NCBI GenBank assembly: GCA_016209865.1
Contig: JACQVL010000068.1
Coordinates: 1 to 17,384 of the forward strand
DNA: 17,384 bases
Source of the DNA: Candidatus Latescibacterota bacterium
GTDB lineage: Bacteria; JAAXHH01; JACQVL01
Direction of reading: 5' to 3'
Shown: positions 2,355 through 17,384 of the stretch, piece by piece
How the letters are laid out: every line of letters starts with the position of its first letter
Position numbering within the stretch: position 1 is the first letter of the stretch
Notes under the pieces: generated by a model
Databases searched by the model: none
What the model was told of the DNA's origin: nothing
What the model saw: only the letters and a program-made list of their open reading frames with translations
Made by a program: the position numbers and the translations under genes

Positions 2355-2387
2355 GAGAGCTGTTATGTCACCACACAGGATACAACG

Positions 2388-2536
2388 ATGAAACATCCCC
2401 TGACCCCGATCGACCTGCGGGAACACGGGCGGCTGGGCATCGAGCACATACGTCATAGCGTCGACCGCGACGGATTCCCATCCCCCACTGACCGTCATGC
2501 ATCATCAGCGAGAAACGTTGCTGGACTTGATCGCGG
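2388..2536 (+). pseudogene. decayed partial copy of the 5' end of the GH127-like gene at 3291
   Basis: Bases 2388-2468 match 3291-3371 with 5 mismatches in 81. Bases 2471-2536 then match 3601-3666 with about 7 mismatches in 66. About 229 bases of the full gene are missing at the junction, which puts the second block out of frame: the start codon and first 27 codons read correctly (MKHPLTPIDLRE...), then the frame shifts and encodes unrelated residues. Similarity also seems to extend about 11 bases before the ATG, over the ribosome site. After 2536 I see no further match. This is a relic of a duplication and should not be annotated as a protein, although a 75-residue frame runs through it to 2615. 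Confidence 0.85.
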
Positions 2537-2607
2537 ATACGTTAGGCAGCATGATATTACGTCAGCAATGGGGACATTGAAGCCATTTTGCACGAACAGG
2601 AGGTCCT

Positions 2608-2898
2608 ATGCCTAAGCCTATCGAGGTGAAACCGCTCGACCATTACTGCCTCTGGCTCAAATATTCAGACGGCATTGAAGGCGTGGTTGATCTGTCCAAC
2701 TTGGTCGGTAAGGGCGTGTTTGCCCTCTGGAACGATGAGCATGCCTTTCAACAGGTGCACCTCGGCCCAAGCGGAGCGCTGGCGTGGAGTGAGCAAGTAG
2801 AACTGTGTCCCGATGCCCTGTATCTCAAGCTCACCGGGAAAACACCAGAAGAGCTCTTCCCGGCGTTACGAGAGTTGGCACAGTATGCCAGAGATTAG
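2608..2898 (+). CDS. DUF2442 domain protein
   Basis: A protein of 96 residues with a strong ribosome site, AGGAGG at 2598-2603, before ATG 2608. It has the DUF2442 layout: a first strand with YCLWLKYSDG (12-21), the VVDLSNLV turn (26-33), a central F..V.LG segment, and the closing W-x(6)-L-x-PD-x-LY pattern (residues 58-72). Members are small cytoplasmic proteins of unknown biochemical role. They are often encoded next to DUF4160 proteins, as here, and the pairing has the look of a toxin-antitoxin-type module. The next gene starts inside this one with a 14-base overlap, which suggests coupled translation and tight stoichiometry. Which partner would be toxic cannot be told from the sequence. 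Confidence 0.88.
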   Translation: MPKPIEVKPLDHYCLWLKYSDGIEGVVDLSNLVGKGVFALWNDEHAFQQVHLGPSGALAWSEQVELCPDALYLKLTGKTPEELFPALRELAQYARD

Positions 2899-3145
2899 CC
2901 GGTTCTTCGGGATCAGCATCAAGATGTACTTTGATGATCATCCGCCGCCGCACTTTCACGCGGAGTATGGGGAATATATCGCGGTTGTGGAGATTCACAC
3001 CTTGGTGGTAATCGGGGGGACATTGCCCCCGCGGGTATTGGGGTTGGTCATTGAGTGGGCGGCTCAACATCGAGGGAAGTTGCTCACGCTGTGGGAGTTG
3101 GCCGCGCAGCATCAGCCGTTGCATAAGCTACCTCCGCTCGAATAG
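2885..3145 (+). CDS. DUF4160 domain protein
   Basis: A protein of 86 residues starting at ATG 2885, inside the end of the DUF2442 gene. A longer frame from 2813 exists, but its extra residues only shadow the upstream gene, and homology to the family begins at MPEISRFFGI. The signature DDHPPPHFHAEYGEY (17-31) is the hallmark of DUF4160, and the second half carries the usual EWA..HR..LL.LWE pattern (57-71). It is small, soluble and without a signal peptide. The His-rich motif is suggestive of metal or phosphate binding, but no activity is established to my knowledge. Overlap with DUF2442 argues that the two proteins act together. Confidence 0.9.
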   Translation: MPEISRFFGISIKMYFDDHPPPHFHAEYGEYIAVVEIHTLVVIGGTLPPRVLGLVIEWAAQHRGKLLTLWELAAQHQPLHKLPPLE

Positions 3146-3290: not shown

Positions 3291-4838
3291 ATGAAACATC
3301 CCCTGACCCCGATCGACCTGCGAGAGCACGTGCGGCTGGGCATCGAGCACATACGTAACAGCGTCGACCGCCGCCGCGACTGTCGCCCGTACTTCCGCTT
3401 CAACCTGACGACTCCTCCCGTCTGGTCTCAGCACGAAGACTGCGACACCCCCCACACGGTCGGCCGTTTCCTGCATGCGCTGAACGTGTGCACCGGGATC
3501 GCCGGACCGCTGGACGATGCCGAGTTGTTGCACGGATTGCGGAAGCACATGTTCGCAAGCTGCGCGCATGAACACGGGTTCGCCCAGGACGATGTGGGTA
3601 CGGATTCCCATCCACCGCTGACCGTCATGCACCATCAGCGAGAAGCGTTGCTGGGCCTGATTGCGGTCTGGCGGCTGCTCCAGGATCCTCAGGCCGAGCG
3701 GTACGCCCGAACCCTGGTCGCTGCCATGGAAAAGGCAACCAGAGTCACTGGAACCTACCCAGGCGCCACCCTGGGGTCGCGAGGGTGGCAGGACACGAAC
3801 TTCGCCACGATGACCTCCGGACGCGCGGTCGGCGCGCTGCTCGTCTACAGTCGCACGTTTGATGATCCGCTCGCGGTGGAATTGGCGCTGCGCTTTGCTC
3901 GCCACGTCCTCGCCTCGTGTTTCGGGGAGAACGGCGAACTGACCCCGGCCGCCGGAACCCATATCCACTCTATCACCGGCACCGTGGCCTCGTTAGCAGA
4001 ACTCGGCCTCGTGACCGGGCAACGGGAGTTCACTGAGCGTGCCCGCCTCGTCTTTGATAGCGGACTCCTCCCGTATCGCACTCGGACCGGCTGGGTCAAG
4101 GAGGGAGCCACAGCCCATCGTGGTCGGGGTGAGGCTAACTGCACCGCCGACCTGATCGAAGCGGCCTGTCTGCTCGGCATGGCCGGCTCTCCTTCGTATT
4201 TCGAGGATGCGGACCGCATGCTCCGCAACCATCTGCTCGCTTCCCAGATGGATGACCTGTCGTGGGTGGTGGAAAACGAAGGAATGGCCAACACCGACAC
4301 GCGCGCCTACGAAGGTCTGCGACAGCGAGCGCGGGGCGCGTTCTGCTTCGCCGAGCCCAACGGATTCCATTCGTACAACTCCGACCTCACCGGCGCGGCG
4401 CTCCAGGGCATCGCCGCCGCTTGGCAGCATATCATCACGCGCGAAGGAGAGGGGAGGGTTCGGATCAACATGCTGCTGTCCCGCCAGCATGAGGATATCC
4501 GCCTCACCAGCCTGTTGCCGCAGGAAGGAAGGGTCATCCTCGAACTCAACCATCCCACAACGGTCTCCATGCGCCTCCCGCCCTGGACTGAGCGACAGAC
4601 CGTCAATATCACGATCGATGGTCATGCCGTGACACCCATGATGGAGGGGGATGGCCTGACGATAGACGCACTCCGTGAAGGGACGCGAATCGAGGTGACG
4701 TTTGCGCAACCTGAGTTTGTGACCCAGGAGCGTGCGCTCGGCTATGAGACACCGTATCGAGTCCGGTGGCTGGGGAATGCGGTGATGGCGATGTCTGGCA
4801 CGAATCCTTGTATGACCCTCTACCCGGCGCTGGTGTAG
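3291..4838 (+). CDS. GH127-like alpha/alpha-barrel protein, Cys-Cys pair not seen
   Basis: A protein of 515 residues, with GAGGA at 3280-3284 six bases before ATG 3291. The body (about 50-390) has the repeating helical-hairpin pattern of an (alpha/alpha)6 barrel, followed by a beta-sandwich tail (about 390-500) with an MRLPPW segment typical of the GH127 group (beta-L-arabinofuranosidase-like). GEANCTADLIEAA (280-292) matches the place where GH127 enzymes have their conserved Glu and first zinc Cys. The second site, a CC pair in known enzymes, appears here as HSYNSDLTGAALQG (360-373) with no cysteines. It may therefore use another mechanism, be a lyase-like or inactive relative, or belong to a neighbouring family. 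There is no signal peptide. The next gene follows after 22 bases, so the two form an operon. The 145 bases before it (3146-3290) hold no gene, only a small hairpin (TGGGG 3214-3218 / CCCCA 3224-3228). Confidence 0.72.
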   Translation: MKHPLTPIDLREHVRLGIEHIRNSVDRRRDCRPYFRFNLTTPPVWSQHEDCDTPHTVGRFLHALNVCTGIAGPLDDAELLHGLRKHMFASCAHEHGFAQDDVGTDSHPPLTVMHHQREALLGLIAVWRLLQDPQAERYARTLVAAMEKATRVTGTYPGATLGSRGWQDTNFATMTSGRAVGALLVYSRTFDDPLAVELALRFARHVLASCFGENGELTPAAGTHIHSITGTVASLAELGLVTGQREFTERARLVFDSGLLPYRTRTGWVKEGATAHRGRGEANCTADLIEAACLLGMAGSPSYFEDADRMLRNHLLASQMDDLSWVVENEGMANTDTRAYEGLRQRARGAFCFAEPNGFHSYNSDLTGAALQGIAAAWQHIITREGEGRVRINMLLSRQHEDIRLTSLLPQEGRVILELNHPTTVSMRLPPWTERQTVNITIDGHAVTPMMEGDGLTIDALREGTRIEVTFAQPEFVTQERALGYETPYRVRWLGNAVMAMSGTNPCMTLYPALV

Positions 4839-4860
4839 GGGCGGCTGGCGAGGTGGGGTT

Positions 4861-5973
4861 ATGACAATCACGAACTTCCAGACACTGGTGCTCGCGGCTC
4901 CACTCAAGAAGCCGATGGGCGGCATCTCGCACAGCGGCCCGGTCTACTCACGGAAGACCGCATTGATCCAGGTGATGACCGATGAAGGGCTGGTGGGTCT
5001 CGGGGAGAGTTTCGGCATCCCGGAACTCGTGCCCCCGATCGTCCAGCACGTGTTCCGCCCGCTGCTGATCGGGCAAGATGCTCTGGACACCGAGGGACTG
5101 TGGGACCGCATGTATCGCGGCCTGGGCTATCACGGTCAGAAAGGACTCCTCGTTGAAGTCCTGAGCGGGATCGACATCGCGCTGTGGGACCTGCGAGGCA
5201 AAGCGGTTGGACAACCGATCTACAAGCTCTTAGGCGAAACTCACCGCACGACCCTCCCGGCCTATGCCGCCGGGATGTATTTCTCGCAGGTGGACAACCT
5301 GCGGGCTGAGGCGCGCTCCTACGTGGAACAGAGCTTCAGCGCCGTCAAGCTGAAGATCGGGGTGGGGAATAAGGTCCCGGACGAGGTCGCGGTCCGGACG
5401 GTGCGAGAGACGGTGGGGCCCGATGTCCGTGTGATGGCGGACCTCAACTGCGGCTATGATTATGAGAAGGCGCTCGAAGCCGGAAAGAAACTCGAACCCT
5501 ATGACCTGCATTGGCTGGAAGAACCCGTCCCACCGGAATACTTAGAGGACTATCACCGGCTTCGACAGACACTCACGATGAAGATCGCTGGGGGTGAAGC
5601 CGAATACACCCGCTGGGGCTTCAAGGCGATGTTTGAGAAAGAGGCGGTGGACGTGGCTCAGCCGGATCTCATGCGGTGTGGAGGACTGACGGAAGGCCGG
5701 CGTATCGCCCAATTGGCGGCCGAGTACGGCGTTCCGGTCTCAACCCATGCCTGGCTGTCCATCGTGGGGATGGTCGCGTCGCTGCACTACGGCGCTGCCT
5801 GTCCCCTCTTCGAGAGCTTTGAGTTCGAGATGACGGAAAACCCGCTGCGTGACGACATCACCGTTCAAAAGCTCCGCGCCGAGCGCAGTCAGGTCAAGGT
5901 ATTCGAAGGGCCGGGTCTCGGACTGGACCTCATCGACGAGCAAGTCGCGCGATACCTGGTGATGAAGGGATGA
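4861..5973 (+). CDS. mandelate racemase/muconate lactonizing enzyme-family protein (sugar-acid dehydratase or racemase candidate)
   Basis: A protein of 370 residues, normal length for the enolase superfamily. ATG 4861 follows a GAGGTGGGG ribosome site. The N-terminal capping domain (about 1-125) contains the closed-loop segment around residues 18-30. The barrel carries the full mandelate-racemase-subgroup set: KLK at 163-165, metal ligands D194 (VMADLNCG), E220 (HWLEEP) and E246 (AGGEAEY), and the D269 (QPDLMRCGG) / H296 (STHAW) dyad, with E318 as the likely late-barrel Glu. These are nearly the same residue numbers as in mandelate racemase. Such enzymes abstract the alpha proton of a carboxylate using Mg2+, and family members in sugar loci are usually aldonate or uronate dehydratases. 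The substrate cannot be set from sequence. It is cytoplasmic and co-transcribed with the GH127-like gene upstream. Confidence 0.92.
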   Translation: MTITNFQTLVLAAPLKKPMGGISHSGPVYSRKTALIQVMTDEGLVGLGESFGIPELVPPIVQHVFRPLLIGQDALDTEGLWDRMYRGLGYHGQKGLLVEVLSGIDIALWDLRGKAVGQPIYKLLGETHRTTLPAYAAGMYFSQVDNLRAEARSYVEQSFSAVKLKIGVGNKVPDEVAVRTVRETVGPDVRVMADLNCGYDYEKALEAGKKLEPYDLHWLEEPVPPEYLEDYHRLRQTLTMKIAGGEAEYTRWGFKAMFEKEAVDVAQPDLMRCGGLTEGRRIAQLAAEYGVPVSTHAWLSIVGMVASLHYGAACPLFESFEFEMTENPLRDDITVQKLRAERSQVKVFEGPGLGLDLIDEQVARYLVMKG

Positions 5974-6013
5974 TCGGACAATGTTCATCGGTTCGCGCGT
6001 CAGTTCTGGGTAT

Positions 6014-7027
6014 TTACTCCCGCCAGACCTGCCGAAAGAGCCGAAGCAGGTTCCCGCTCAATACTTTTTCAATCTCCTCATCCGTATAGCCTCGTTTGAC
6101 CAGTCCCCGCGTCAGGTTGGGCATCAGGCTGATGTGTTCCACTTCTTTCACCCACGCCCACGTATCGTCCGGAGCGGTGAGGAAATAATCGCCCCCGAGT
6201 GCGACCGTATCGATGCCCACTAAGGAGCGGATATGGTCGATGTGGTCGATCAGATCGTCGAGGATCGCCTGCGTTGTGCCGTGACGCGGGGTAATGTAAT
6301 CGCCACTGACAAAATGGAGGCCGATGACCCCGCCACGCGCCGCCAGCGCACGAATCTTCTCGTCGGTCAGCGTATCCCCCTTCCCCGAGACCGCGTAGCA
6401 GGCCGTATGCGAGACGATCACCGGCTGCTGGCTGAGTTCCAGCACCTGCCAGAAGGCGGCGTCCTGGAGGTGGGAGAGGTCGATCAGCATCCCCACGCGG
6501 TTCATCTCCTGCACCACGGCTTGCCCCAGCTCATTGAGCCGCCAGTCAGTGATGAGTTGATTCGGGGCCGCCCAGGTCAGTTGCAGTTCCCGCAGGCCGA
6601 GCCGATAGAACGTTCGTAGGATCTCCAGACTCCCCTCTATCGGCCGCGGTCCCTCGAAGCTCAAGATCAACCCGGTCATCCCCTGTTGCTTCGCCGTGAG
6701 GATGTCGGCGACACCCCGGACGATCATGACCTCTCCGGGATGGGCTTCGACGAACCGGTGCACCGCGTCCATCGTAGCGAGTCCACGCTTGGTCCATCCC
6801 TCAAGCGTGTCGATGGAGACACGCCGTCCCTCCGCATCCCAGACGATGCTATCGACCGTTAACTTCACCACCTTGGCCGTGACTCCACCCTGGCGCATGG
6901 CGGCGACGTCTTCTGGCCCATACAGGTGATCATGGGCGAGGACGACTATTGAACGCTCGTGCAGCGCCTGCGCACGCGCGGCTTCCGTGGGGCTTAACGC
7001 GACCTGGGGCGCGTTTGCATCTGGCAT
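6014..7027 (-). CDS. peptidase M19 (membrane dipeptidase) family protein
   Basis: A protein of 337 residues from ATG 7027, chosen because AGGAG lies 6 bases upstream; the GTG one codon earlier would be too close. It matches the M19 (renal dipeptidase) metal scaffold: E125 (LSFEGPR), H186 (DLSHLQ), H207 (VSHTAC, 21 residues on, as in the family) and D280 (LGGDYF). The first motif, normally H-x-D, reads H32-D-H34 here. The family hydrolyses dipeptides or acts on amidohydrolase-like substrates with two zinc ions. There is no signal peptide or lipid anchor, so it is cytoplasmic. It is the last gene of the minus-strand run, 30 bases after the dehydrogenase, and converges with the enolase-superfamily gene across 40 bases with no clear terminator. 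Why a dipeptidase relative sits in a sugar locus is unknown. Confidence 0.88.
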   Translation of the reverse strand: MPDANAPQVALSPTEAARAQALHERSIVVLAHDHLYGPEDVAAMRQGGVTAKVVKLTVDSIVWDAEGRRVSIDTLEGWTKRGLATMDAVHRFVEAHPGEVMIVRGVADILTAKQQGMTGLILSFEGPRPIEGSLEILRTFYRLGLRELQLTWAAPNQLITDWRLNELGQAVVQEMNRVGMLIDLSHLQDAAFWQVLELSQQPVIVSHTACYAVSGKGDTLTDEKIRALAARGGVIGLHFVSGDYITPRHGTTQAILDDLIDHIDHIRSLVGIDTVALGGDYFLTAPDDTWAWVKEVEHISLMPNLTRGLVKRGYTDEEIEKVLSGNLLRLFRQVWRE

Positions 7028-7033
7028 CACGTT

Positions 7034-7038
7034 CTCCT
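7034..7038 (-). promoter_or_regulatory. ribosome binding site of the M19 gene
   Basis: AGGAG on the minus strand, 6 bases before ATG 7027. It settles the start on ATG 7027 rather than the adjacent GTG at 7030. Confidence 0.75.
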
Positions 7039-7057
7039 TTGAGTTTTTACGGAGGAT

Positions 7058-8206
7058 TCACCCGATCCCCTCGTTCAGGACGATGGTAGCCTTGACACAC
7101 CGCAGGGCCAGGGCGCTGTGAATGGCTTCGTGAACCCCCGCTTCGGTGAAGGGGAAGCAGGTCTGCATCTGCGGCCACGGGTAGCGAGTGCAGGCCCGGT
7201 CGAGCAGGTCGATGGCGACCGGGATGTCGTTGGCGGTAAACGCCCAGCTTCCCACGACGATGATGTCCTTGACGCAGAACCGGTGCCAGTTGGTGGCGAT
7301 CGGACCTGCGTCGGTGAATTGCCCCATCTCGACGTAGGTCCCGCCGTCCCGCAGCATCTCGATCCCCTCCGGCCCGGCAGAGGGATGACCGCTGCACTCC
7401 ACCACCACGTCCGCGCCGAAGCGTCCGACAACCTGGCGGACGGCATCGATCCGTGCCTGCGGGGTCGTGTGGGTCTCAAGGGACACGGTGGCGTCCGCGC
7501 CAAACTGGCGACACAGGGCGAGCCGTGGCTGTTCCGGCGCTCCCACCACGATGACACGTCCGGCGCCCATCTCCCGGGCTGCCGCCAGGGCCAAGACCCC
7601 GATGGGGCCTGAACCCTGAATGACCACCGTAGACCCGGCCCGGAACCCGCCGACCGCCACCGCCCGGTTCAGGGCGCGCACACAGGCGGTGAGCGGCTCA
7701 GCCAGCGACCCAAGCCGTAACGACATACGATCCGGTAACCGGTAGACCTTCGTGGCGGGTAACAGGTCGAGGTCGATATAGACCATCTCAGCCCAGCCAC
7801 CCCACAGGTGCGGCGGTTTCTCGAACGGGAGATACCGACCGTAGTAGGTGGGGTTGAGACACCGGTTGGCGTGGGTCGGGTAGTGCACGCAGTAGTAACA
7901 CGTTCCACAGGGCATGAGAGGCGGCAGCATGACCTTGCAGCCGACGGTCAGCGGTTGGCCCATAAAGTCGGCTTCCAGGGCAGGACCTTTTTCGACGATC
8001 ACACCAGCCAGTTCATGACCCAGCGTCAACGGCCAGGGCAGGGGTGTGGGCCAGTGTCCCTGGAGGATGTGCAGGTCGGTGCCGCACACCCCGCAGACAC
8101 CGATCTGGATCAGAGCCGCTTTGTCGGGCACGCGGGGCCGGGGCACCGTCCTGATCTGCGGCCGGGCGCCGGGGCGATCGAAGGTAGCGACACGTACGGT
8201 CTGCAT
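7058..8206 (-). CDS. zinc-dependent medium-chain alcohol/polyol dehydrogenase
   Basis: A protein of 382 residues, normal for the MDR superfamily. Catalytic-zinc ligands are visible: C41 in GVCGTDLH, H64/E65 in LGHELAG, and E170 in LAEPL. The structural zinc lobe is CGTCYYC (100-106) with the fourth Cys at 116, a slightly longer loop than usual. The Rossmann motif is GSGPIG (198-203), and no Asp or Arg seen after the second strand decides clearly between NAD and NADP. The family oxidises secondary alcohols, with sorbitol, threonine and aldose dehydrogenases as relatives, so a sugar or polyol is likely here. The ribosome site CCTCCTC (8212-8218, read as GAGGAGG) lies in the 12-base gap after the URO-D-like gene. 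That tight packing marks a shared transcript. Confidence 0.93.
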   Translation of the reverse strand: MQTVRVATFDRPGARPQIRTVPRPRVPDKAALIQIGVCGVCGTDLHILQGHWPTPLPWPLTLGHELAGVIVEKGPALEADFMGQPLTVGCKVMLPPLMPCGTCYYCVHYPTHANRCLNPTYYGRYLPFEKPPHLWGGWAEMVYIDLDLLPATKVYRLPDRMSLRLGSLAEPLTACVRALNRAVAVGGFRAGSTVVIQGSGPIGVLALAAAREMGAGRVIVVGAPEQPRLALCRQFGADATVSLETHTTPQARIDAVRQVVGRFGADVVVECSGHPSAGPEGIEMLRDGGTYVEMGQFTDAGPIATNWHRFCVKDIIVVGSWAFTANDIPVAIDLLDRACTRYPWPQMQTCFPFTEAGVHEAIHSALALRCVKATIVLNEGIG

Positions 8207-8218
8207 CCGAACCTCCTC

Positions 8219-9292
8219 TCAACAGGCGATGGGCAACCTGCCGAATCGGTTGATCGTCTTGAGAATCGTGTCAAAACTCTCTCGCCACCGGTTATCCGGG
8301 ACATTTTCTGTAATACCGATGATAAACCGGTCTCCGGGGGCCGCTTCTTTGAGCATCTGTTTCGTCGTGGCCTCGATCACACTGGCTGGCTCGAGATGCA
8401 CGGATGACGGGAAATTGATGAAGAGGACTTTCCCCGGCCACAGGCGTCGTGCCTCAGCCACGGTCATGTCAGTATCCGGCGCCGGCGTGAACGCTTCAAC
8501 CCAATCCAGCGCAGATTCACCGATTTCCCGAGCCCAGAGCTTATTGTTCGCGTCGAGATGACAGCCCACCAGCTTTCCGCCTGCGTGCAGGATCGAGGTC
8601 ACTTCTTCCCAATGAGGTACGACATACGAGACGAATCGTTCTTTGCCCAGCACCTCTGGCGCATAGTTCCCTCCGCATTGCACGACTCTTGCCGGAGACT
8701 GGGCGATAATGGAAAAAACGGCTCGCTCGTTTTCAACGATCGCTTCATGCAGGGCGAGAACCCGGTTTCGTCGTTCCGCCCATTCGACGCTGAACGTGGT
8801 AAGCCCCATCAGGTGGTACATGATCGTGTGTAACGGAGCCCCTGGAGCCGTGGTCTTAAAGAACGCATCCCCACCGATTTGTTCCTGCGCCCTCAGGAAC
8901 GAGGCATAATCGGGTGTGTACTGGCGATCCCGGATGATGAATTCCAGCGCCGCGTAATCCTCAGGGCTTTTGAACAGTGGTTCCATCTGCCAGGTGGTGT
9001 TCTCCGTCTTCTCTGCGGGCAGGCTCTTCGTCAAGGATGTGAGCATCCCTTTGGGCGTTTTGATCGTCGTTTTTTGATACCGCGCTCCGTCCTTGTTGAA
9101 GGTGAGCGTTTCCGTCTCCGTGTTGGGGCTTGCGACGGTATAGACAGATCTGGCATCCAGGATACACAAGCCTTCATTCCGGAGGAGTCGTTCCATCTCA
9201 CACTGGGGAATTCGCCATCCCTTGAGCGCGAACGGAACGGTATCAACGAGCTTCCCCTCAAACACGGCTTCGAGTTTCTCAGCGCACGTCAT
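8219..9292 (-). CDS. URO-D (uroporphyrinogen decarboxylase) superfamily protein
   Basis: A protein of 357 residues from ATG 9292, which has GGAGGAGGA a few bases upstream; the in-frame ATG at 9310 would place that site inside the coding region. The opening MTCAEKLEAVFEGKLVDTVP matches the N-terminal helix and 'R.P..' lead of URO-D-like proteins. The barrel shows GGKLVGCHLDANNK (238-251), where members have an H-x-D-G/N-type loop, and IIGITENVP (324-332) near the C-terminus. True HemE residues for porphyrinogen binding are not evident, and no corrinoid protein is encoded nearby as partner for a methyltransferase. The function is therefore unknown. It lies between a GH127-like gene and the Zn dehydrogenase. 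A second, distant relative is at 12696-13814. Confidence 0.82.
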   Translation of the reverse strand: MTCAEKLEAVFEGKLVDTVPFALKGWRIPQCEMERLLRNEGLCILDARSVYTVASPNTETETLTFNKDGARYQKTTIKTPKGMLTSLTKSLPAEKTENTTWQMEPLFKSPEDYAALEFIIRDRQYTPDYASFLRAQEQIGGDAFFKTTAPGAPLHTIMYHLMGLTTFSVEWAERRNRVLALHEAIVENERAVFSIIAQSPARVVQCGGNYAPEVLGKERFVSYVVPHWEEVTSILHAGGKLVGCHLDANNKLWAREIGESALDWVEAFTPAPDTDMTVAEARRLWPGKVLFINFPSSVHLEPASVIEATTKQMLKEAAPGDRFIIGITENVPDNRWRESFDTILKTINRFGRLPIAC

Positions 9293-9295
9293 CTG

Positions 9296-9304
9296 TCCTC
9301 CTCC
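9296..9304 (-). promoter_or_regulatory. ribosome binding site of the URO-D-like gene
   Basis: GGAGGAGGA on the minus strand, ending 3 bases before ATG 9292, with the best core GGAGG 6-8 bases away. It argues for ATG 9292 against the upstream ATG 9310. Confidence 0.75.
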
Positions 9305-9346
9305 GGTCATCTGGTTACCCCGGATTCAGATTTAAGGATCTCAGGA

Positions 9347-11110
9347 CTACCACAGAACGGACTGATCGGCGACGAACCGCTCTTTGTCCACCCAGCGCGT
9401 ACGGTCGTTGCGCAGGGCCTCGCGCTCAAACAGAGGATAGTAGATGCCTCTGGGCTCGATCCACACGATGTCGGAGCCTCGCAGACCGAGGGAGTAGAGT
9501 TCACCCCCCATTTTTTCCTGGACGGTTCGTTCTGTGATCGGAAACTGGAGCGTCGCCGTCTGTCCTTCAGGGATAGCGTCCAGTTCGACGTACCGCCCGC
9601 TGCGTCGATGCGTCGTCGCTGTTCCGTTGACCGTCACGGTCACCCCTTCCTTCTCTCCAACCCACACCGGCAGCCGAACGCGCAGAGACAGTCGTGCTTT
9701 CATCCTGACGTCCACCCGACCCTGGTACGGCAGATGGCTGTTCACGTCCGCCCAGGGAGAAGCCCGGTTCAGCAGGAGATGGAGGTGCAGGGTGTCCTGG
9801 CAGTGTTCGAGGATCGACTCCCACCCATAGTACAGCGCACGGGCACAGTTGCCAAGACAACAGTGCTGGAAGACCGGCCAGCCTTTTCCCGCCCAGAGAT
9901 CGTTGGGAAGCGTCCAGCCGCCGAACGACCCGACGTTGCGTTCAGGCACGCGGTCGGACGTGGCGTTCTCCTCAGTGGCTCTCTCGGTCCGGGGCACCAC
10001 GGTGTCCTGAGCCGAAATCAGCCGCTCGGCCACCCGGTACATCCAGTCGCCGCGGAGCATCTGCATCGTCGCCAGTTCGTTCCGGAGGGTGGCGTCGAGG
10101 TCGTCGAAGAGGTCTGCGGCTCCCGTCTGGGTCAGGCGCGACTGGATGGCCACCATGTCTGCGATACAGCAGCCCTCGGTGTTCCGAAATGGACGGTCAT
10201 CCGGCCATACATCGCCGATGTATTCCGGGTAGTAGCCGGTGATCGGGCTTCCGGTCGACCGGGCAAACTCGTACGCCCGCAGGGCGCGTGCTGCCGCTTC
10301 CTTGTCCCCCGTCGCCAGAGCATACTCGGCCAGGGCCAGCACCGTGTTCGTGTTATGATGGAAGTGGAGCGCCATGCGACTCCCGTCGGGCCAGGTCCCG
10401 GCCTGTGGATCCCAAATGCTTTTGCTGGTCTGATGTTCCAGGGCTCTGGGACCGTGGCGCGCACACAACCGCCCTTCCTCGTCGAGCACCCCGGTGCGCG
10501 GGTCGCTCAGATACCGGGCCAGACGCGTCGCTGTCTCATAGGCTGCGTCATCCCCGGTCGCGCGCAGGTACTGGGACAGCCCTTGCAGGGTCCAGCCAAA
10601 AATCGTAGCCGGCCACCCCCGTCCCATCTCGCCCCGCGTCTGATGCTCGACCAGGATCGTCCGGTAGTCCCTGACCGCCCGGGCGCATGCCTTCTTCCAG
10701 GCATCGTCACCCGTTAACAGCCAGTATAAGGTCGCGGTGGCAAGCATTCGTCCTGAGGAAACGGCGGTCGAGAGGTTGTCTGTCGTGAGGCTGTTCCACA
10801 ATCGATCCGCCCAGCTCCGTTCCATGTCCCCGTGATCGCAGTTCCCACACGTCAACCGGTCGAGAATCAACGCTTCCCACATCTTGGGGTTGTACGCAGC
10901 CGTATCGCTCCCGACCGGCTGATGGCGGATCATCGTCGGAGGATACGAGGCGAGGGTGACGAGGAAATACTGGGCGTAGTCATTTGCGGGCTCGGTCGTC
11001 CCGGCAATGGCGTGAATCGCCAGACTCGCGCGGTCGGCCAGGTCGAGCGTATCCGGCACCCATGCGGAGTACCGGGCTCCGCCATACTCTGGTAACGGCA
11101 TATCAGACAT
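9347..11110 (-). CDS. GH127-type (beta-L-arabinofuranosidase-like) protein
   Basis: A protein of 587 residues from ATG 11110. GTG 11143 in frame is possible, but neither start has a strong ribosome site. Helical-hairpin repeats (about 60-360) form a predicted (alpha/alpha)6 barrel, then a beta-sandwich tail contains RVRLPVWVG. Counting from ATG 11110, NTEGCCIADM (310-319) and VFQHCCLGNCARAL (413-426) align with the two active-site stretches of GH127, in which a Glu and three cysteines bind zinc and one cysteine acts as nucleophile. C417-C418 is the key pair. The substrate may be a terminal beta-L-arabinofuranose or another furanoside; several GH127-like branches have other or unknown specificities. 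There is no signal peptide. It is distantly related to the protein at 3291-4838, which lacks the second cysteine pair. Gaps are 54 bp downstream and 108 bp upstream, neither holding an obvious element. Confidence 0.78.
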   Translation of the reverse strand: MSDMPLPEYGGARYSAWVPDTLDLADRASLAIHAIAGTTEPANDYAQYFLVTLASYPPTMIRHQPVGSDTAAYNPKMWEALILDRLTCGNCDHGDMERSWADRLWNSLTTDNLSTAVSSGRMLATATLYWLLTGDDAWKKACARAVRDYRTILVEHQTRGEMGRGWPATIFGWTLQGLSQYLRATGDDAAYETATRLARYLSDPRTGVLDEEGRLCARHGPRALEHQTSKSIWDPQAGTWPDGSRMALHFHHNTNTVLALAEYALATGDKEAAARALRAYEFARSTGSPITGYYPEYIGDVWPDDRPFRNTEGCCIADMVAIQSRLTQTGAADLFDDLDATLRNELATMQMLRGDWMYRVAERLISAQDTVVPRTERATEENATSDRVPERNVGSFGGWTLPNDLWAGKGWPVFQHCCLGNCARALYYGWESILEHCQDTLHLHLLLNRASPWADVNSHLPYQGRVDVRMKARLSLRVRLPVWVGEKEGVTVTVNGTATTHRRSGRYVELDAIPEGQTATLQFPITERTVQEKMGGELYSLGLRGSDIVWIEPRGIYYPLFEREALRNDRTRWVDKERFVADQSVLW

Positions 11111-11218
11111 TGTTGGCTCGCTTTCTGAAGTGTTCCCTCCCACTCAGGATCAAGGTCGGGTCATCAGTTCCGTCGCTTTTTTCTCACGGCATTCCCTCGT
11201 CGGACATCTGAGTCCTTC

Positions 11219-12538
11219 TTATCGCAGGGCCTTCCATCTCCACGTCGGAGCCTGTGTGTACGTGAAGGAGACCCTGTCTCCTGGCTCCAGGATGAACGTC
11301 TGGCCGGCGACCAGTCCGGCGGAGATGGTTTGAGCGGATGACGGCCGCGGCGGTGGGATGGGCCGCGGCGGCCGCGTGAGGTTGTCCACCAGGCTGAGGT
11401 TGTGCGGGATGGTTTGGGCGGTGCCCTCCGCATCCGCGATCGTCCATTCTGAAACCGCTCCGGGCGTCAGGATGATGACCTGCATCGTATACGGGTTCGT
11501 GTTGACCACCTCATCCCCCGACGCGGGCATCGGGGGGGTGGGCACATCAAACCCGACCGTCCAGTTGGGCACAACCTTATTGGTGGGCATCCTCGCCTTG
11601 TTGGTGATTCCGTTCGGCAGGTCGAAGGCGAAGACCGTGTTATCCCTGGAATCCGGCTCAAACACGATATCCTGTCCGGGCGCTCGTTTCCCGAATAACG
11701 AGAACGTCAACACATTCCTCTGGGCGAAGATGTCCGCCCCGATCGCGTCGTCAGGAACGAAGTCCTCGATGATGACGTACCGTTTGCGCTCGGAATCGAA
11801 ATGCGCGCCTCTCGGCGCATGGAACGACATCTCAAACCGGTTATGGACGATTTTCTGTGACCCTGGGTCGCCGAGCCGGAGGCCGGTGCATCGTCCTGTG
11901 GCGTGGTATTGATTGCCGTATGGCACGTGGATGCGGTTGTTGCTGATCCATTGGCCTACGCCGCCGTTATCCGTGACATAGACGCCTGTTCCAACCGTGT
12001 TGGTCTCTTCCGCAAAGATCAGACTGTTAATGATGGGGCCTTTGGACGAGTCGATCAGGATGCCAACCCCGTCCGGGTGGCTTGAGACGACCGCAGAAAA
12101 ATCGAACAGGCTGGCGGTGACCACGACGAAATCGTCCGGGCCTGGAGTCTCGGGCTTGATCGCTACGGCCGCATCGGGGGACTGCGAGGTGATGAGGCCG
12201 AATTTGTACCGGCAATTCATCTGGCTGTCGATATGGATCGCGTGGCCGGTCGTCTTTTGGTAGGCGAACAGAGCGTTCCCTCCATCCACTCGAAAGTCCT
12301 GGCTCCACGGCACCCGGAGCGTCTCATCGAGCGTGTAGATGTTGTACGGCATCCCCTCTCCGTCGTGCATCCCGCCCCGACCTCCCCAGATGTAGACATC
12401 CCGGCAGTGGGCATGCGCGTAATCGAGGGCTTCCTGGATGCCGCTGGTCTTCGTGCCCGGGGTGTTCGGTCCGAAATCCCCGCCATCATCCGGCCCTTGG
12501 AGTGTCACAAAGACGTAGGGTTTTCGTCTGGCTTCCAT
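11219..12538 (-). CDS. right-handed beta-helix protein with C-terminal beta module
   Basis: A protein of 439 residues from ATG 12538, supported by AGGAG nine bases upstream; the frame opens at 12574. Residues 7-50 (VTLQGPDDGG..., IQEALDYA) resemble the opening of pectate-lyase-superfamily helices. Residues about 85-320 show short alternating strands with Asn/Gly turns (NNRIHVPYG, HNRFEMS), as in a right-handed parallel beta-helix. A C-terminal module begins at NPYTMQVIILTPG (348-360) and ends GDRVSFTYTQAPTWRWKAL (420-438), a pattern seen at the end of phage and bacterial surface-type beta proteins. A proline-rich insert (389-399) splits it. The enzyme class (lyase, hydrolase, epimerase or binding protein) is not evident, and no catalytic residues stand out. 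No signal peptide is visible, which is unusual for such a protein. Confidence 0.6.
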   Translation of the reverse strand: MEARRKPYVFVTLQGPDDGGDFGPNTPGTKTSGIQEALDYAHAHCRDVYIWGGRGGMHDGEGMPYNIYTLDETLRVPWSQDFRVDGGNALFAYQKTTGHAIHIDSQMNCRYKFGLITSQSPDAAVAIKPETPGPDDFVVVTASLFDFSAVVSSHPDGVGILIDSSKGPIINSLIFAEETNTVGTGVYVTDNGGVGQWISNNRIHVPYGNQYHATGRCTGLRLGDPGSQKIVHNRFEMSFHAPRGAHFDSERKRYVIIEDFVPDDAIGADIFAQRNVLTFSLFGKRAPGQDIVFEPDSRDNTVFAFDLPNGITNKARMPTNKVVPNWTVGFDVPTPPMPASGDEVVNTNPYTMQVIILTPGAVSEWTIADAEGTAQTIPHNLSLVDNLTRPPRPIPPPRPSSAQTISAGLVAGQTFILEPGDRVSFTYTQAPTWRWKALR

Positions 12539-12547
12539 CCGTATCGT

Positions 12548-12552
12548 CTCCT
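12548..12552 (-). promoter_or_regulatory. ribosome binding site of the beta-helix gene
   Basis: AGGAG on the minus strand within AAAGGAG, 9 bases before ATG 12538. It favours this start over ATG 12574, which would include the site in the coding region. Confidence 0.7.
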
Positions 12553-12571
12553 TTCTGTCTTTCTGTGCCCC

Positions 12572-12684
12572 CATCCCCCGGCCCCTCGTTTGGGCAGGTG
12601 GGCAATGGGCAGTGGGCAGTGGAAGCCGTTCCCCCGTCCACTGCCTACCTGCCCATCTGCCCAGTAGAGTAGGGCCGGGGGGAT
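12572..12684. repeat. large imperfect inverted repeat between URO-D-like and beta-helix genes
   Basis: The left arm (about 12572-12622) and right arm (about 12637-12684) are largely complementary. ATCCCCCGGCCC pairs with GGGCCGGGGGGAT at the base, GGGCAGGTGGGCA with the segment around TACCTGCCCATCTGCCC, and GGCAGTGGA with TCCACTGCC next to a loop of about 14 bases. A transcript could fold into a very long GC-rich stem with a few bulges. No T-run follows on either strand. It fills most of the 157-base gap. It could stop or pause transcription, stabilise mRNA ends, or be a small non-coding repeat element present elsewhere in the genome. Confidence 0.75.
12591..12622. repeat. heptamer tandem repeat TGGGCAR
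   Basis: Units TGGGCAG (12591-12597), TGGGCAA (12599-12605), TGGGCAG (12606-12612) and TGGGCAG (12613-12619) run head to tail with one extra G after the first, then a partial TGG. They make up the left arm of the larger inverted repeat. The right arm holds more degenerate complements. Confidence 0.85.
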
Positions 12685-12695
12685 AGTGAGGGCCA

Positions 12696-13814
12696 TCAGA
12701 CCTCCCCGGCCAGAAACCGCCGCCCGTACTCGCGTCCGTGCTCCATCATGGCACGGATGTTCTCCAGCGGAGCCTCAGGAAGGATCGAACTGCTGGGCGC
12801 CAGGCAGAAGCCGCCGCCGGGAGCGGCCACCTGGAAGCAGCGTTCGACCTCGCGCTTCACGTCCTCCACCGTCCCGAACGGCAGGGTATGCACGACGGAC
12901 ACACTGCCGAAGAAGATCAGTTTGCCGCCATCCTGACGCCGGAACTGAACCATCTCCTCCAGCGGAATATTCGCCTCGCGTTCCTGGAAGCCCTGAAAAC
13001 CGGTGACACCCAGGTCGATCAAACGAGGCACTAAGGGCAGGACATTCCCGTCACAGTGCCAGACGATCTCGATTCCCGCTTCGACTAACGGTCGCAGCGC
13101 ATCGGCCAGGGCCGGGAAGTACAGGTTATCGAGCATGGCCACCGCACACATCGGGCCGTCGTTGAAGCAGATATCGTCCCCCCCGTACACCACCGGGGCT
13201 AAGTCGTCCTGGCGGACGGCTTCGGCGATGGCGAGGTTGTACAGGCGGCCCCACTCGCCTCCGTGCCAGAAGTACCGGCGGAAATGTTCCGGGTAGAGGT
13301 AGAGGGCGGACAGATAGCTCTCGTAGTTCCAGCGGGTGTAGCCGCCCATGAAACTGGGCATTCCGAAGCTCCCGATGTACAGCGTCCGGTCCCCGGACAT
13401 CTCGCGCAGGCGGAGCAGACGTTGGGCATAGTTCCGCGCTGCCGCGTCGAGGTCAAAGTCACGGCCGAGTGTCTCTGGATCGGGAAGCGCCTCGATGTCG
13501 TCACGCACCTGTTCCGGGGTCACGTCCGTTCTCGGGTAGCTCAGGGAGACGTTGCCGGAGGCTGATTCCGGGACGTGGAACGGGTCGCACGCTAAGTGTT
13601 CGTGGTGGGGGGATGGCATGATAAACTGGGGGTTGAGGTTACAACCCGAATTGGCGAACGCCTCGACGGCGGTGCGCACCGGGTCTGCGTAAATATCGTC
13701 CACTCCCGCATACTGGCGGAAGAACTCCCGTTTCATCACCCAGCAGCAGATCAGACACGGCTCTTCAACGTGCTCGCGCTGTAATGTCCGCCACGCGATC
13801 TCTACGCCAGTCAT
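12696..13814 (-). CDS. URO-D superfamily protein (second copy, divergent)
   Basis: A protein of 372 residues from ATG 13814, with GAGG and AGG purine runs upstream. It has the URO-D-like barrel plan: an N-terminal PC.ICCWVMKREFF segment, YIGSFGMPSF (146-155), GGDDICFNDGPM (211-222), then VWHCDGNVLPLVPRLIDLG (251-269), the conserved H-x-DGN-type loop of this branch, followed by GFQGFQE and a late GGGFCLAPSS (333-342). H253, C254 and C337 might bind a metal, as in corrinoid-protein methyltransferases of the superfamily, but their spacing is not the classical H-x-C-x(n)-C. No heme or corrinoid genes are near. It starts 25 bases after the GH116-like gene and probably shares its transcript. Its substrate is unknown; methyl transfer from, or breakdown of, a released aglycone or sugar acid is speculation. 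Confidence 0.82.
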   Translation of the reverse strand: MTGVEIAWRTLQREHVEEPCLICCWVMKREFFRQYAGVDDIYADPVRTAVEAFANSGCNLNPQFIMPSPHHEHLACDPFHVPESASGNVSLSYPRTDVTPEQVRDDIEALPDPETLGRDFDLDAAARNYAQRLLRLREMSGDRTLYIGSFGMPSFMGGYTRWNYESYLSALYLYPEHFRRYFWHGGEWGRLYNLAIAEAVRQDDLAPVVYGGDDICFNDGPMCAVAMLDNLYFPALADALRPLVEAGIEIVWHCDGNVLPLVPRLIDLGVTGFQGFQEREANIPLEEMVQFRRQDGGKLIFFGSVSVVHTLPFGTVEDVKREVERCFQVAAPGGGFCLAPSSSILPEAPLENIRAMMEHGREYGRRFLAGEV

Positions 13815-13839
13815 GAAACCTGCCTCGCTTCCCTGTCGA

Positions 13840-16293
13840 TCATTCTGCCTTCCCCGCCTGGATCATCCGATCAACAAGGCTTCCGGGAGCGCAGAACGTT
13901 GTGATGTCCAGATTATCGATCGACGCAGGGACGGCCCAGAGCATCATGTTCTGGTAGTAGTCGGTTCCAAAGACGCGCGCCCCGGTGTCCCCCCGGACGA
14001 TGTTGGGCAAATCCCACGGATGGCGCTGCCGTACCGTGAGGTTCTCCCAGTGCCGGCGGCAGAGATCGACCCCGAACTCTCGCTCCCCCGCCACCATGTA
14101 CGTCATCGCCAGCACGACCAGCTCGGGCGGGAACATCGCGTACTGGCCGTAGACGGCCACTTGTGAGCCGGACGGCAGGGGACTCCCGTCGGGCCGGACG
14201 AAGTTGGCCGCGCCCACGTCGGGGGTCAGGGCGATGTTGCAGCGTTTGATCGTGTCCAGCGTAGTCTTCACCCGATCCGCCCGGAACACGCCGGGAAGCC
14301 CGTGGTACCGGGCCGCCCATTCGCCGTCCAACTGATACCCCATCACGTCATCCGATTTCTTCCCGGTCTCTTTCTCGTAGAAGTTCAGGTAGTAGCTGCC
14401 TGCCCACATCTCCTCTTCCATCGCTCTACAGCCATCGGCCAGCCATGCCCGGCATCGTTCAACGTATTCGGCATCTCCCATCGCCTCTGCCATCCGTTCC
14501 ACCATGCGCAACTGCGCCAGCCGCAGGCCGCCCATGTGCGCCGCCATGCCCGCCCATTCGCCGAACTCGAACCACTCCATCCCGCCGATCTCGGGCATGC
14601 TGATGACCCCGCCCGGGCCTGTGCGCAGGTTCATCGTGAATGTGTTGCACCGCTTCACCGAGTCGTAGAACGCGCGCAAGACTGTCTCGTCCCCGGTCCG
14701 CTGCCAGAGCCGGTCGACCATATCGATGTAACACGTCCCGTTGAGGGAGACCTGCCAGTAGTACTCGGGCGTGGTCAGGTCGGGCAGGTCGCCGATCCTG
14801 CCGATCGCAAACGGGATCTCCCCGTCTTCGAGCTGGTATTGCTTGAACGCTTTGAGGTTTGACAGCGCCAGCTCCGGGAAGAACAGCACGACCGGCAGGT
14901 TGCCGTACCAGTCGCAGGGGATGCAGGAGATGTGGGGACAGCCCCGCGGACTCTCGTTGAGGGCGAACACCCCTTCGGGATAGCCCCAATCCCCCACCGG
15001 AGGCTTCGCCTGGACCCAGTAACTGTCCTCGGCGATCAGACAGAGGTTGTTCACTAAGGCGTCGCGGAGCCAGACGGGCAGCCGGTCTTCCGTGTAGACG
15101 ACCGCCTGCCAGGCCAGCACCCGTTGCAGCAGAGTCTCATGTTCAACCGCCATCCGCCGGGCCACGTCCAGGGCGCTGTCGTAACGCGCCGCGTACATCT
15201 GGGTGTAGTAGTTCGTGTCCCCCGCCCATGCAGAGGTCAGCCAGCGCTGCCGGAGATAGCCGTCGATCACCAGACGATCATCGCCGGTCCAGGTCTTCTT
15301 CGCTCCCTCTAACACCGGCGCATACCAGGCGAGGAGAAACCGGACGACTTTCTCCTGTCCGGCTGCCAGGCTAAAATCGACAGCGACAGAACAACTGAAA
15401 TCGTGGGACAGGACGAGGCCCTGATGTTCCCGCCGGGCGGGCTGGGGCAGGTCGGTGGCGATGCGAGACCAGGCGGTCGGGTTGGTAGTCAGGCCGGCAC
15501 CGAAGCGAACGTGCTCATTCCCGATGACACCCAGAATGTAATTGACCCCGCCGGTGGAGCTGACGAGCATCCCGCGAACGTCCTCGTCTACAGGCTGACG
15601 GATGAATTCGGTCGCCCGGGCGTCCTGGGCATCCGGGCCGGGAAAATCGAACGCGATCGTCCCATGTTGAGGCTGGTCGGTCGCGTTCCGCAGGTGCACC
15701 TCGAAGACGGCTGCCGGGATGTTGGATGCGGCAGTGTCCCCCGGAAGAAACGGCGACCAGGCCCGCAGTCCCACGCCGACGGGCGCGTCGGTCTCGAACT
15801 CCATATCAGCGACCGGATAGTGTCCCCAGTAGTGAATCTCTCTGGCGGCCTGGACTCCTTCCACCACCGGGCAGGCGGCCATCAGGGGCTTGCTCTCTTT
15901 CCCCTGCACTTCGAGCATCTGCGGTTCGGTGCACCACGGGATCGTCCCGCCGGTCATCATCTCCTGAGCGGCCAGCACCCAGGTCTTGTCCCCCACGGCA
16001 AGGCCCAGGAACGGGGAAGGAGCGGGGGGCTTTCGCGTGATCCGCCAGTTCTGGTGAACGGGATGAAGGAAGGACGGGTTGAACAGGCTGCTGAAGCCGT
16101 ACACCCCACGGGCGTCGATGTCGAGACAGCCGGTGCTGATCCCCCCTAACGGCACCCCACAGCAGGGCGGCTGACCAGTGCGGTAGATGATCCCGCTGAC
16201 CGGCCTGGCAAACCCGGCGGCGGGGAACTCGCTCCATCGCAGAGGGGGAAGGTCGGTGGGAAACAACGTCCCTTGACTATTCGTGTGCGACAT
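13840..16293 (-). CDS. GH116/DUF608-like glycosidase
   Basis: A protein of 817 residues from ATG 16293, with AGGAG seven bases upstream. The N-terminal beta-sandwich domain (about 30-330) opens with CCGVPLGGISTGCLDIDARG (44-63), close to the GVPLGGxGTG signature of the GBA2/GH116 N-terminal domain. The alpha/alpha-barrel catalytic domain spans about 400-800. E447 in FALNESPRGCP, followed by CDWYGNLPVVLFFPEL (460-475), lines up with the GH116 nucleophile region, and MPEIGGMEWFEFGEWAG (566-582) with the acid/base region, where the usual Asp appears replaced by Glu (E573 or E576). GH116 members are beta-glucosidases, beta-xylosidases or glucosylceramidases. There is no signal peptide, so it should act in the cytoplasm. 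It is upstream of URO-D-like and other genes in the same run. Confidence 0.8.
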   Translation of the reverse strand: MSHTNSQGTLFPTDLPPLRWSEFPAAGFARPVSGIIYRTGQPPCCGVPLGGISTGCLDIDARGVYGFSSLFNPSFLHPVHQNWRITRKPPAPSPFLGLAVGDKTWVLAAQEMMTGGTIPWCTEPQMLEVQGKESKPLMAACPVVEGVQAAREIHYWGHYPVADMEFETDAPVGVGLRAWSPFLPGDTAASNIPAAVFEVHLRNATDQPQHGTIAFDFPGPDAQDARATEFIRQPVDEDVRGMLVSSTGGVNYILGVIGNEHVRFGAGLTTNPTAWSRIATDLPQPARREHQGLVLSHDFSCSVAVDFSLAAGQEKVVRFLLAWYAPVLEGAKKTWTGDDRLVIDGYLRQRWLTSAWAGDTNYYTQMYAARYDSALDVARRMAVEHETLLQRVLAWQAVVYTEDRLPVWLRDALVNNLCLIAEDSYWVQAKPPVGDWGYPEGVFALNESPRGCPHISCIPCDWYGNLPVVLFFPELALSNLKAFKQYQLEDGEIPFAIGRIGDLPDLTTPEYYWQVSLNGTCYIDMVDRLWQRTGDETVLRAFYDSVKRCNTFTMNLRTGPGGVISMPEIGGMEWFEFGEWAGMAAHMGGLRLAQLRMVERMAEAMGDAEYVERCRAWLADGCRAMEEEMWAGSYYLNFYEKETGKKSDDVMGYQLDGEWAARYHGLPGVFRADRVKTTLDTIKRCNIALTPDVGAANFVRPDGSPLPSGSQVAVYGQYAMFPPELVVLAMTYMVAGEREFGVDLCRRHWENLTVRQRHPWDLPNIVRGDTGARVFGTDYYQNMMLWAVPASIDNLDITTFCAPGSLVDRMIQAGKAE

Positions 16294-16313
16294 GACTCTG
16301 CTCCTTTCAAAGT

Positions 16314-16348
16314 CGGTGATCGGTGGCCGGTGGTCGGTGATCGGTCAG
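16314..16348. repeat. heptamer tandem repeat CGGTGRY
   Basis: Four clean units, CGGTGAT, CGGTGGC, CGGTGGT and CGGTGAT (16314-16341), and a degenerate fifth CGGTCAG (16342-16348). They lie in the 106-base gap between the clan-A hydrolase stop and the GH116-like start, about 20 bases upstream of that ATG. On the coding strand they read as ATCACCG-type units. The period of seven and position just before a gene match the repeat at 12591. Confidence 0.85.
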
Positions 16349-16399
16349 ATCACGGATCATGGGAGGCTCTGAGGCTCCTTTCAGTACTGTTCGACGAGT

Positions 16400-17384
16400 T
16401 CACGCGCAAGGGTCTTGTGTCTCAAAACAGACATACTGGGGTGCAGAAGAAAGGGACAGTACCATCGGATCATCGTTCGGCAGCGCCTGCCCGTAGAGAT
16501 CGACCTTGTGGACACTACCAGGGATAACGGTCAACGGGAGGGTAATGGCTTGCACCCCGCACGGCCGCCAGAGGACGGCCACGCGACGGCGATCTTTCCC
16601 GAATAGGAAGCCACGCGGGCGCGTCACGACGCTGAGGTTCCGGACCCGGACTCGACAGCGGAGACCATCCCCCTCGTGGAGGTAGAACGGCCGGAAATGG
16701 TATCGTTTCACATAGAGAGAGACGAGGGTTAAGGGATAGAGCAATTCATGAGGCCCCTCACGAGACGCGTCCGGCGCGAACATGCCGGCCACCGGCTTCC
16801 AGCCGTGCCAGTTCAGATACTCCAGATCGCCCATGAATTCTCGGCCCCCAGCATCCCGCACACGAGCGCCTATGAGGTTATCGGACGCGTCCGCATGTAC
16901 CTCCATCGCCAGGCCCGTGGGTTCCCCTGGCAAGAGGCGATGAATCGGAACGTCTCTCACCGTCTTCTCCGGTTCGTCCGAGAGGGTGAGGTCGAGAACG
17001 ATCTCATCCCCATCGCGGTGCACATGCACCGGCGAACCCGACAGGTCCAGCGGGACCGCTACGGAGGCCGCCGACAGATCGATCGGCCCCAGGTAGTCAT
17101 ATCCGTGCAGGAGACGGGTCATCGTCGCAAAGGCGAGGTAGGCTGGCTTCGGGGACATGTCCTGACGAAGGAGCCCCAGATTGCTCTCCCAGTAGGACGG
17201 GTCGGCGGCGTCGTCCCGGAAGTCATACCAGAAGCACTTATCCAGACCCGGGACGGCCAGGGCCATGATGTAGGCTTTGACGAGATACTCCGCCTGGGTC
17301 TGTTCCGTGACGGCCAGATGCGCCCCTGTCGGCCATCCCAGCTCTGTCAGCCAGGTCGGTTTGAGACACCCGTAGTCCTGACAC
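16400..17384 (-). CDS. clan-A-type glycoside hydrolase, C-terminal part (runs off the window)
   Basis: The frame stays open from the right edge to the stop at 16400, about 327 codons. The ATG at 17266 is internal, since the preceding codons (17267-17383) continue the same fold. They include KPTWLTELGWPT, whose Glu at 17342-17344 fits the nucleophile at the end of barrel strand 7 in clan-A TIM-barrel enzymes (GH5, GH39, GH53 and relatives). Next come GLDKCFWYDFRDD and LRQDMSPKPAYLAF, the usual last strand and 'KPAY.A' helix. About 200 residues of beta-rich sequence follow, probably one or two accessory sandwich domains. The exact family and substrate cannot be set without the N-terminal half, and any signal peptide lies outside. 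It is the first gene seen in the minus-strand run, 106 bases ahead of GH116. Confidence 0.75.
   Translation of the reverse strand, partial: CQDYGCLKPTWLTELGWPTGAHLAVTEQTQAEYLVKAYIMALAVPGLDKCFWYDFRDDAADPSYWESNLGLLRQDMSPKPAYLAFATMTRLLHGYDYLGPIDLSAASVAVPLDLSGSPVHVHRDGDEIVLDLTLSDEPEKTVRDVPIHRLLPGEPTGLAMEVHADASDNLIGARVRDAGGREFMGDLEYLNWHGWKPVAGMFAPDASREGPHELLYPLTLVSLYVKRYHFRPFYLHEGDGLRCRVRVRNLSVVTRPRGFLFGKDRRRVAVLWRPCGVQAITLPLTVIPGSVHKVDLYGQALPNDDPMVLSLSSAPQYVCFETQDPCA

Follow-up and report, generated by a model that had tools for sequence, protein, structure and literature searches.

URO-D-superfamily proteins and glycosidases encoded together on a contig of a Latescibacterota bacterium

The stretch of DNA analysed here (the window) is an entire contig (C355; 17,384 bases) of a Latescibacterota draft genome. 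It carries genes for glycosidases and sugar-processing enzymes together with genes for two URO-D-superfamily proteins, here called UROD1 and UROD2. The pairing of URO-D genes with glycosidase genes is real and modular, and the exact combination of genes found on this contig is not conserved as a unit. The locus likely serves the catabolism of a glycoside. Of the single readings of what the URO-D proteins do, demethylation of O-methyl sugars via a shared corrinoid protein is the likeliest, with a probability well below even. The genome (3.75 Mb in 356 contigs, 83% complete) belongs to an order of about 15 genomes and has no closer kin.

Pairing of URO-D and glycosidase genes

On contig C231 of the same genome, the gene order UROD2-UROD1-GH10-GH127 is followed by genes for a mannitol dehydrogenase, PfkB, Gfo/Idh, GH2 and a CBM9 protein and by two more URO-D genes. 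URO-D genes are paired with GH29 or GH36 genes on contigs C41 and C203. Locus L191 has the order UROD2-GH127-MDR, a URO-D gene adjoins GH127 at L185 and L193, and genes for a URO-D protein and a GHMP kinase flank GH127 at L184. At L036, URO-D lies beside GH116 and GH29. The closest relative of the GH116-like protein of the window (31% over 814 residues; G042) is encoded in a locus with genes for a fucosidase, a fucose isomerase and a kinase, where a URO-D gene lies 57 bases upstream of it.

In the stretches recovered, URO-D genes lie near five of the 14 loci of full-length relatives of the 598-residue GH127-like protein outside this genome, L191 among them, against 0.79 expected (P about 0.0006), where the loci come from searches in chosen phyla and not from a random draw, the profile used for the URO-D calls is broader than PF01208, which gave the counts behind the density, and the expected count assumes an even URO-D density and ignores the general clustering of URO-D genes in sugar loci. 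Because of this assumption, the result shows an association with sugar loci and not with GH127 alone.

A search with UROD1 yielded 80 loci in a wide range of phyla. The immediate neighbours of the UROD1 relatives are heterogeneous. The 80 loci contain one GH127 relative, two MDR genes and one MR/MLE (mandelate racemase/enolase-superfamily) gene. GH116 is near none of the 80, and the full set was not found in loci of other genomes. The sole UROD1 locus with GH127 (L071, Latescibacterota) has the order URO-D, GH127, URO-D, pyridoxal phosphate (PLP) decarboxylase, URO-D, with UROD1 and PhyH on the opposite strand. A preliminary description of the window had proposed a co-occurring gene set, to be abandoned if the homologues were scattered among unrelated neighbours. 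This is nearly the case for UROD1, yet the GH127/URO-D core recurs. URO-D genes accompany glycosidase genes repeatedly in this genome and in other phyla, whereas conservation does not extend to the complete set.

Other enzyme genes occur near URO-D genes. In two Latescibacterota genomes, a gene for a PLP-dependent decarboxylase sits between two URO-D genes beside UROD1 (L071:7309-8781 and L072:7324-8766). The first is a Pyridoxal_deC protein and its counterpart is similar in size and start. A glycyl-radical enzyme (PFL-like) is encoded among the URO-D and sugar genes of C231 (L030:1129-3444). On contig C194 of the source genome (L031:11033-15588), UROD1-like and UROD2-like genes are followed by a molybdopterin oxidoreductase gene.

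The URO-D proteins and their corrinoid context

UROD1 has no Pfam or NCBIfam match, and a sequence-profile search against solved structures returned nothing significant. Its likeness to URO-D is revealed by fold comparison alone. The AlphaFold2 model (predicted local distance difference test score 93.6) is a URO-D (beta/alpha) barrel. It aligns with human UROD (1r3y) at a Z score of 22.6 and a root-mean-square deviation of 3.6 over 301 residues, with MtaA at 21.6, and with methionine synthases at 14.5 and below. UROD2 matches PF01208 over its second half (39.8 bits; Foldseek E 2.5e-9). The profile of its family comes nearest to MtaA and HemE, and residues 1 to 93 of its model are not reliable. 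Both proteins thus bear out the superfamily assignment in the preliminary description, UROD2 by its PF01208 and Foldseek matches and UROD1 by its predicted structure.

The two proteins differ from MtaA-type methylcobamide:coenzyme M methyltransferases at the active site. The zinc ligands of the latter are H-x-C...C, whereas UROD1 has H-x-D...E and UROD2 has H-x-D...S. The H-x-D...E signature is invariant in all 77 aligned relatives of UROD1, a family with many conserved polar residues. A role as thiol methyltransferases of the MtaA kind is therefore unlikely for either protein. Among the URO-D proteins of this genome that were examined, the full H-x-C...C is present in only two. A role in haem synthesis is rejected, given a clear HemE-like match elsewhere in the genome (C195, 437 bits).

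The single PF02607 corrinoid protein of the source genome is encoded on contig C245, where it is adjoined by genes for the activator RACo, two URO-D proteins and a homocysteine methyltransferase. In Lentisphaerae GWF2_45_14, one operon has the order corrinoid protein, RACo, UROD1 relative, URO-D. This relative is 40% identical to UROD1 and its gene overlaps that of RACo by 4 bases. The UroD superfamily includes the O-demethylases MtvB, OdmB, VdmB and MtoB, and CdmB, which is without zinc (PMC13222342). Methyl transfer is the leading idea because of the GWF2_45_14 operon, the corrinoid genes on C245 and the corrinoid methyltransferases of this superfamily.

URO-D families of about 20 to 50 genes are present in Planctomycetota, Verrucomicrobiota, Omnitrophota, Latescibacterota and others. 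Four genomes (G061, G085, G064 and G078) have 41 to 51 such genes each, 41 of them in a genome of 2.0 Mb, and between one and four PF02607 matches per genome.

Glycosidases, sugar-processing enzymes and gene layout

The ten genes claimed in the preliminary description were all located (Table 1). They form two convergent, tightly spaced units whose genes lie 12 to 121 bases apart, a distance expected within operons. The forward unit consists of the 515-residue GH127-like and MR/MLE genes, and the reverse unit begins with the clan-A fragment at the contig end and closes with the M19 homologue. Pfam and NCBIfam matches support the MR/MLE, M19, MDR dehydrogenase and GH116 labels and one URO-D protein.

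Table 1. Features of the window.
Feature	Position	Strand	Remarks
UROD1, URO-D-fold protein	8219-9310	-	predicted fold; H251-x-D253 and E335 invariant
UROD2, URO-D-superfamily protein	12696-13814	-	H-x-D and Ser at MtaA zinc Cys ligand positions
GH127-like protein, 598 residues	9347-11143	-	E307, E323-x-C325 and C428-C429 kept
GH127-like protein, 515 residues	3291-4838	+	variant active site, without Cys-Cys
GH116-like glycosidase	13840-16293	-	both GH116 domains
Glycosidase-like C-terminal part	16400-17383	-	clan GH-A in the preliminary description; weak DUF5722 match
MR/MLE protein, sugar-acid dehydratase-like	4861-5973	+	nearest to arabinonate/galactonate dehydratases
Zinc-type MDR dehydrogenase, polyol/sugar dehydrogenase-like	7058-8206	-	Pfam/NCBIfam
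M19 (renal dipeptidase-type) homologue	6014-7030	-	H-D-H for H-x-D; no R-N motif
Protein without Pfam match	11219-12574	-	beta-helix in the preliminary description
Relic, second copy of the 515-residue GH127-like gene	2384-2536	+	94% over 85 nucleotides, 90% over 67 nucleotides

Both GH127-like proteins are weak sequence matches, and they differ at the active site. The 598-residue protein scores 27.1 bits for the middle domain (Pfam cut-off 24.2) and 20.9 bits for the catalytic domain (cut-off 24.9). It retains the zinc-ligand and nucleophile cysteines, with E323, C325, C428 and C429 aligned in nearly all relatives. In GH146/GH127 enzymes, E-x-C...CC is essential (E723, C725, C804 and C805 in PMC10850190; also PMC10728902). 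The 515-residue protein, at 23.2 bits, is below the Pfam cut-off of 24.9 and lacks the catalytic cysteines. Within its subgroup E271, E281 and N283 are conserved; N283 occupies the position of the first zinc Cys, and D365, which may act as an ordinary carboxylate nucleophile, aligns with the nucleophile Cys. A relative from the same order (G011, 29% identical) keeps both Glu and has the same Asn and Asp replacements.

The relic is a decayed start of the 515-residue protein's gene, with about 228 nucleotides lost between its two matching parts. It lies upstream of a DUF2442/DUF4160 gene pair with a G+C content of 0.556 (about 0.62 for comparison). This pair and an AAA_14/DUF4143 ATPase gene, which together span 852-3145, are unlike the glycosidase genes in kind and are possibly inserted accessory genes.

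The N- and C-terminal domains of the GH116-like protein score 103 and 89 bits. Its nucleophile E447 is invariant, and E576 replaces the Asp of the acid/base column. The nearest solved structures are glucosidases, and 8ic6 is also matched. One GH116 branch consists of exo-beta-D-arabinofuranosidases, which act on beta-D-arabinofuranosides (PMC10509167). That branch and the residues of the 598-residue GH127-like protein lend modest support to the furanose-containing substrate suggested in the preliminary description; the 515-residue protein, without those residues, does not. The product of the clan-A fragment, whose N-terminus is lost at the contig end, is 37% identical over 56 residues to a GH10 protein of the same genome. 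A PHROGs search with this protein and the one without a Pfam match returned nothing useful.

The top NCBIfam match of the MR/MLE protein is arabinonate dehydratase (245 bits, cut-off 650), and its scores are below every equivalog cut-off. In renal dipeptidase, H-x-D is the metal motif and the Arg of the R-N motif holds the dipeptide. The M19 homologue and its same-order relative both have H-D-H and lack R-N, which makes a dipeptidase role unlikely. That it is lactonase-like is a guess from the neighbouring dehydrogenase and dehydratase genes. An MDR gene is beside none of the seven M19 relatives examined, of which about 1.5 kb was seen on each side.

No tRNA or Rfam matches were found in the window, and promoter and terminator scans of it were at or below shuffled expectation. 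The preliminary description had remarked that no transporter or regulator was visible. This holds for the window genes, among which there is also no SusC/SusD pair, and is uninformative because the window spans the complete contig, which ends on both sides.

Proposed pathway, alternatives and related systems

The enzyme types fit the pathway for an unusual glycoside envisaged in the preliminary description, as does the recurring URO-D/glycosidase coupling; the lack of conservation of the whole set does not. We tentatively propose a cytoplasmic pathway in which the URO-D proteins demethylate, or otherwise act on, a sugar through a shared corrinoid protein. The location is suggested by the lack of signal peptides visible by eye. 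The substrate would be a small imported glycoside, from which the 598-residue GH127-like protein, the GH116-like protein and the clan-A enzyme would remove sugars. The MDR dehydrogenase would oxidise the released sugar, the M19-like metal hydrolase would probably open the resulting lactone or amide, and the MR/MLE enzyme would dehydrate the sugar acid. UROD1 and UROD2 would take the glycoside or sugar itself as substrate and would most likely be methyltransferases that depend on a corrinoid, removing an O-methyl group and passing it to the corrinoid protein encoded on C245. We infer the step order, the substrate and the methyl transfer; the earlier hint of a methylated substrate gains support from the corrinoid context, and demethylation itself is presumed. 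In an extension that we consider unlikely, the many URO-D paralogues, some with H-x-D...E and each with its own glycosidase locus, would form a modular network that demethylates different sugars onto one corrinoid protein.

Several observations weigh against methyl transfer to a shared corrinoid protein. The source genome has 22 URO-D matches for its one corrinoid protein, and in several genomes 15 to 48 URO-D matches are accompanied by zero to two for PF02607. G399 has 15 URO-D matches and neither a PF02607 nor a RACo match, and G218 has 39 URO-D matches and no RACo match. A corrinoid protein is encoded nearby at only one of the 80 UROD1 loci. Neither URO-D protein of the window is close to a characterised O-demethylase, we know of no characterised counterpart of the H-x-D...E signature, and no methyl-tetrahydrofolate step was identified. 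In one alternative, the same glycoside pathway would have corrinoid-free URO-D proteins, with H-x-D...E binding a metal for another reaction (such as decarboxylation, aldol cleavage or isomerisation). The invariance of this signature against the H-x-C...C of MtaA, the many conserved polar residues, the number of URO-D genes in several genomes (20 to 40 for each corrinoid protein) and the two URO-D-rich genomes without a RACo match all argue for this explanation. It is still somewhat unlikely, with a UROD1 relative inside the corrinoid protein-RACo operon and zinc-free corrinoid methyltransferases known in the superfamily (PMC13222342).

The URO-D genes may also be unrelated to the glycosidases, with numerous paralogues and mobile sugar genes meeting by general clustering of accessory genes. 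The heterogeneous neighbours of UROD1 in other genomes and the unconserved full set are consistent with this, but GH127 and URO-D meet at about six times the frequency predicted from density, the pairing recurs on another contig of the source genome, and the genes are co-directional with short gaps; we regard chance clustering as quite unlikely. Very unlikely is a beta-arabinofuranoside pathway with no methylated sugars, in which GH127 and an arabinofuranosidase-type GH116 free arabinose that the MDR dehydrogenase, an M19-type lactonase and the MR/MLE enzyme degrade. It assigns no task to the URO-D proteins. The retained GH127 residues, the GH116 branch described in PMC10509167, the match to 8ic6 and the arabinonate dehydratase match point towards it, the last at a score far below its cut-off, and the structures closest to the GH116-like protein are glucosidases.

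If sugar demethylation via a shared corrinoid protein is correct, it offers an oxygen-independent route for methylated glycans; a known route of 6-O-methyl-galactose demethylation uses a cytochrome P450. Should the URO-D proteins have another function, the H-x-D...E family would be a group of uncharacterised enzymes for which a high-confidence model is available. A literature search found nothing relevant on glycan-linked URO-D proteins or corrinoid sugar demethylation and no paper that explains large URO-D families beside glycosidases.

The glycosidases have partial counterparts in known systems. Like the GH127/GH146 beta-L-arabinofuranosidases HypBA1 and Bll3HypBA1, the 598-residue protein has both Glu and all three Cys residues that make up the zinc-cysteine site, whereas the Pfam scores here are marginal and, in the 515-residue protein, Asn replaces the first zinc Cys and Asp the nucleophile Cys. 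The D-arabinan loci of Microbacterium likewise place a GH116 member within a sugar-degradation locus. Unlike them, this contig is without GH183, GH172 and an ABC transporter, and the available part of PMC10509167 reports no URO-D for the Microbacterium loci.

The acetogen O-demethylase and haloalkane systems (OdmB, MtvB or CdmB with a corrinoid protein, MTII and an activator) share with this locus a URO-D-superfamily protein; the source genome has a corrinoid protein and RACo, and one UROD1 relative is in the same operon as both. They differ in that the window genes have no adjoining corrinoid protein or MTII, in the single corrinoid protein per about 20 URO-D proteins, and in the conserved polar residues and glycosidase association seen here. 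The mlp clusters (Mlp, corrinoid protein and Ram/RACE; PMC10418091) differ from the window, whose URO-D proteins are without the H-x-C...C zinc ligands and are encoded among glycosidases, and resemble C245 and L120, where URO-D paralogues occur with a corrinoid protein and an activator.

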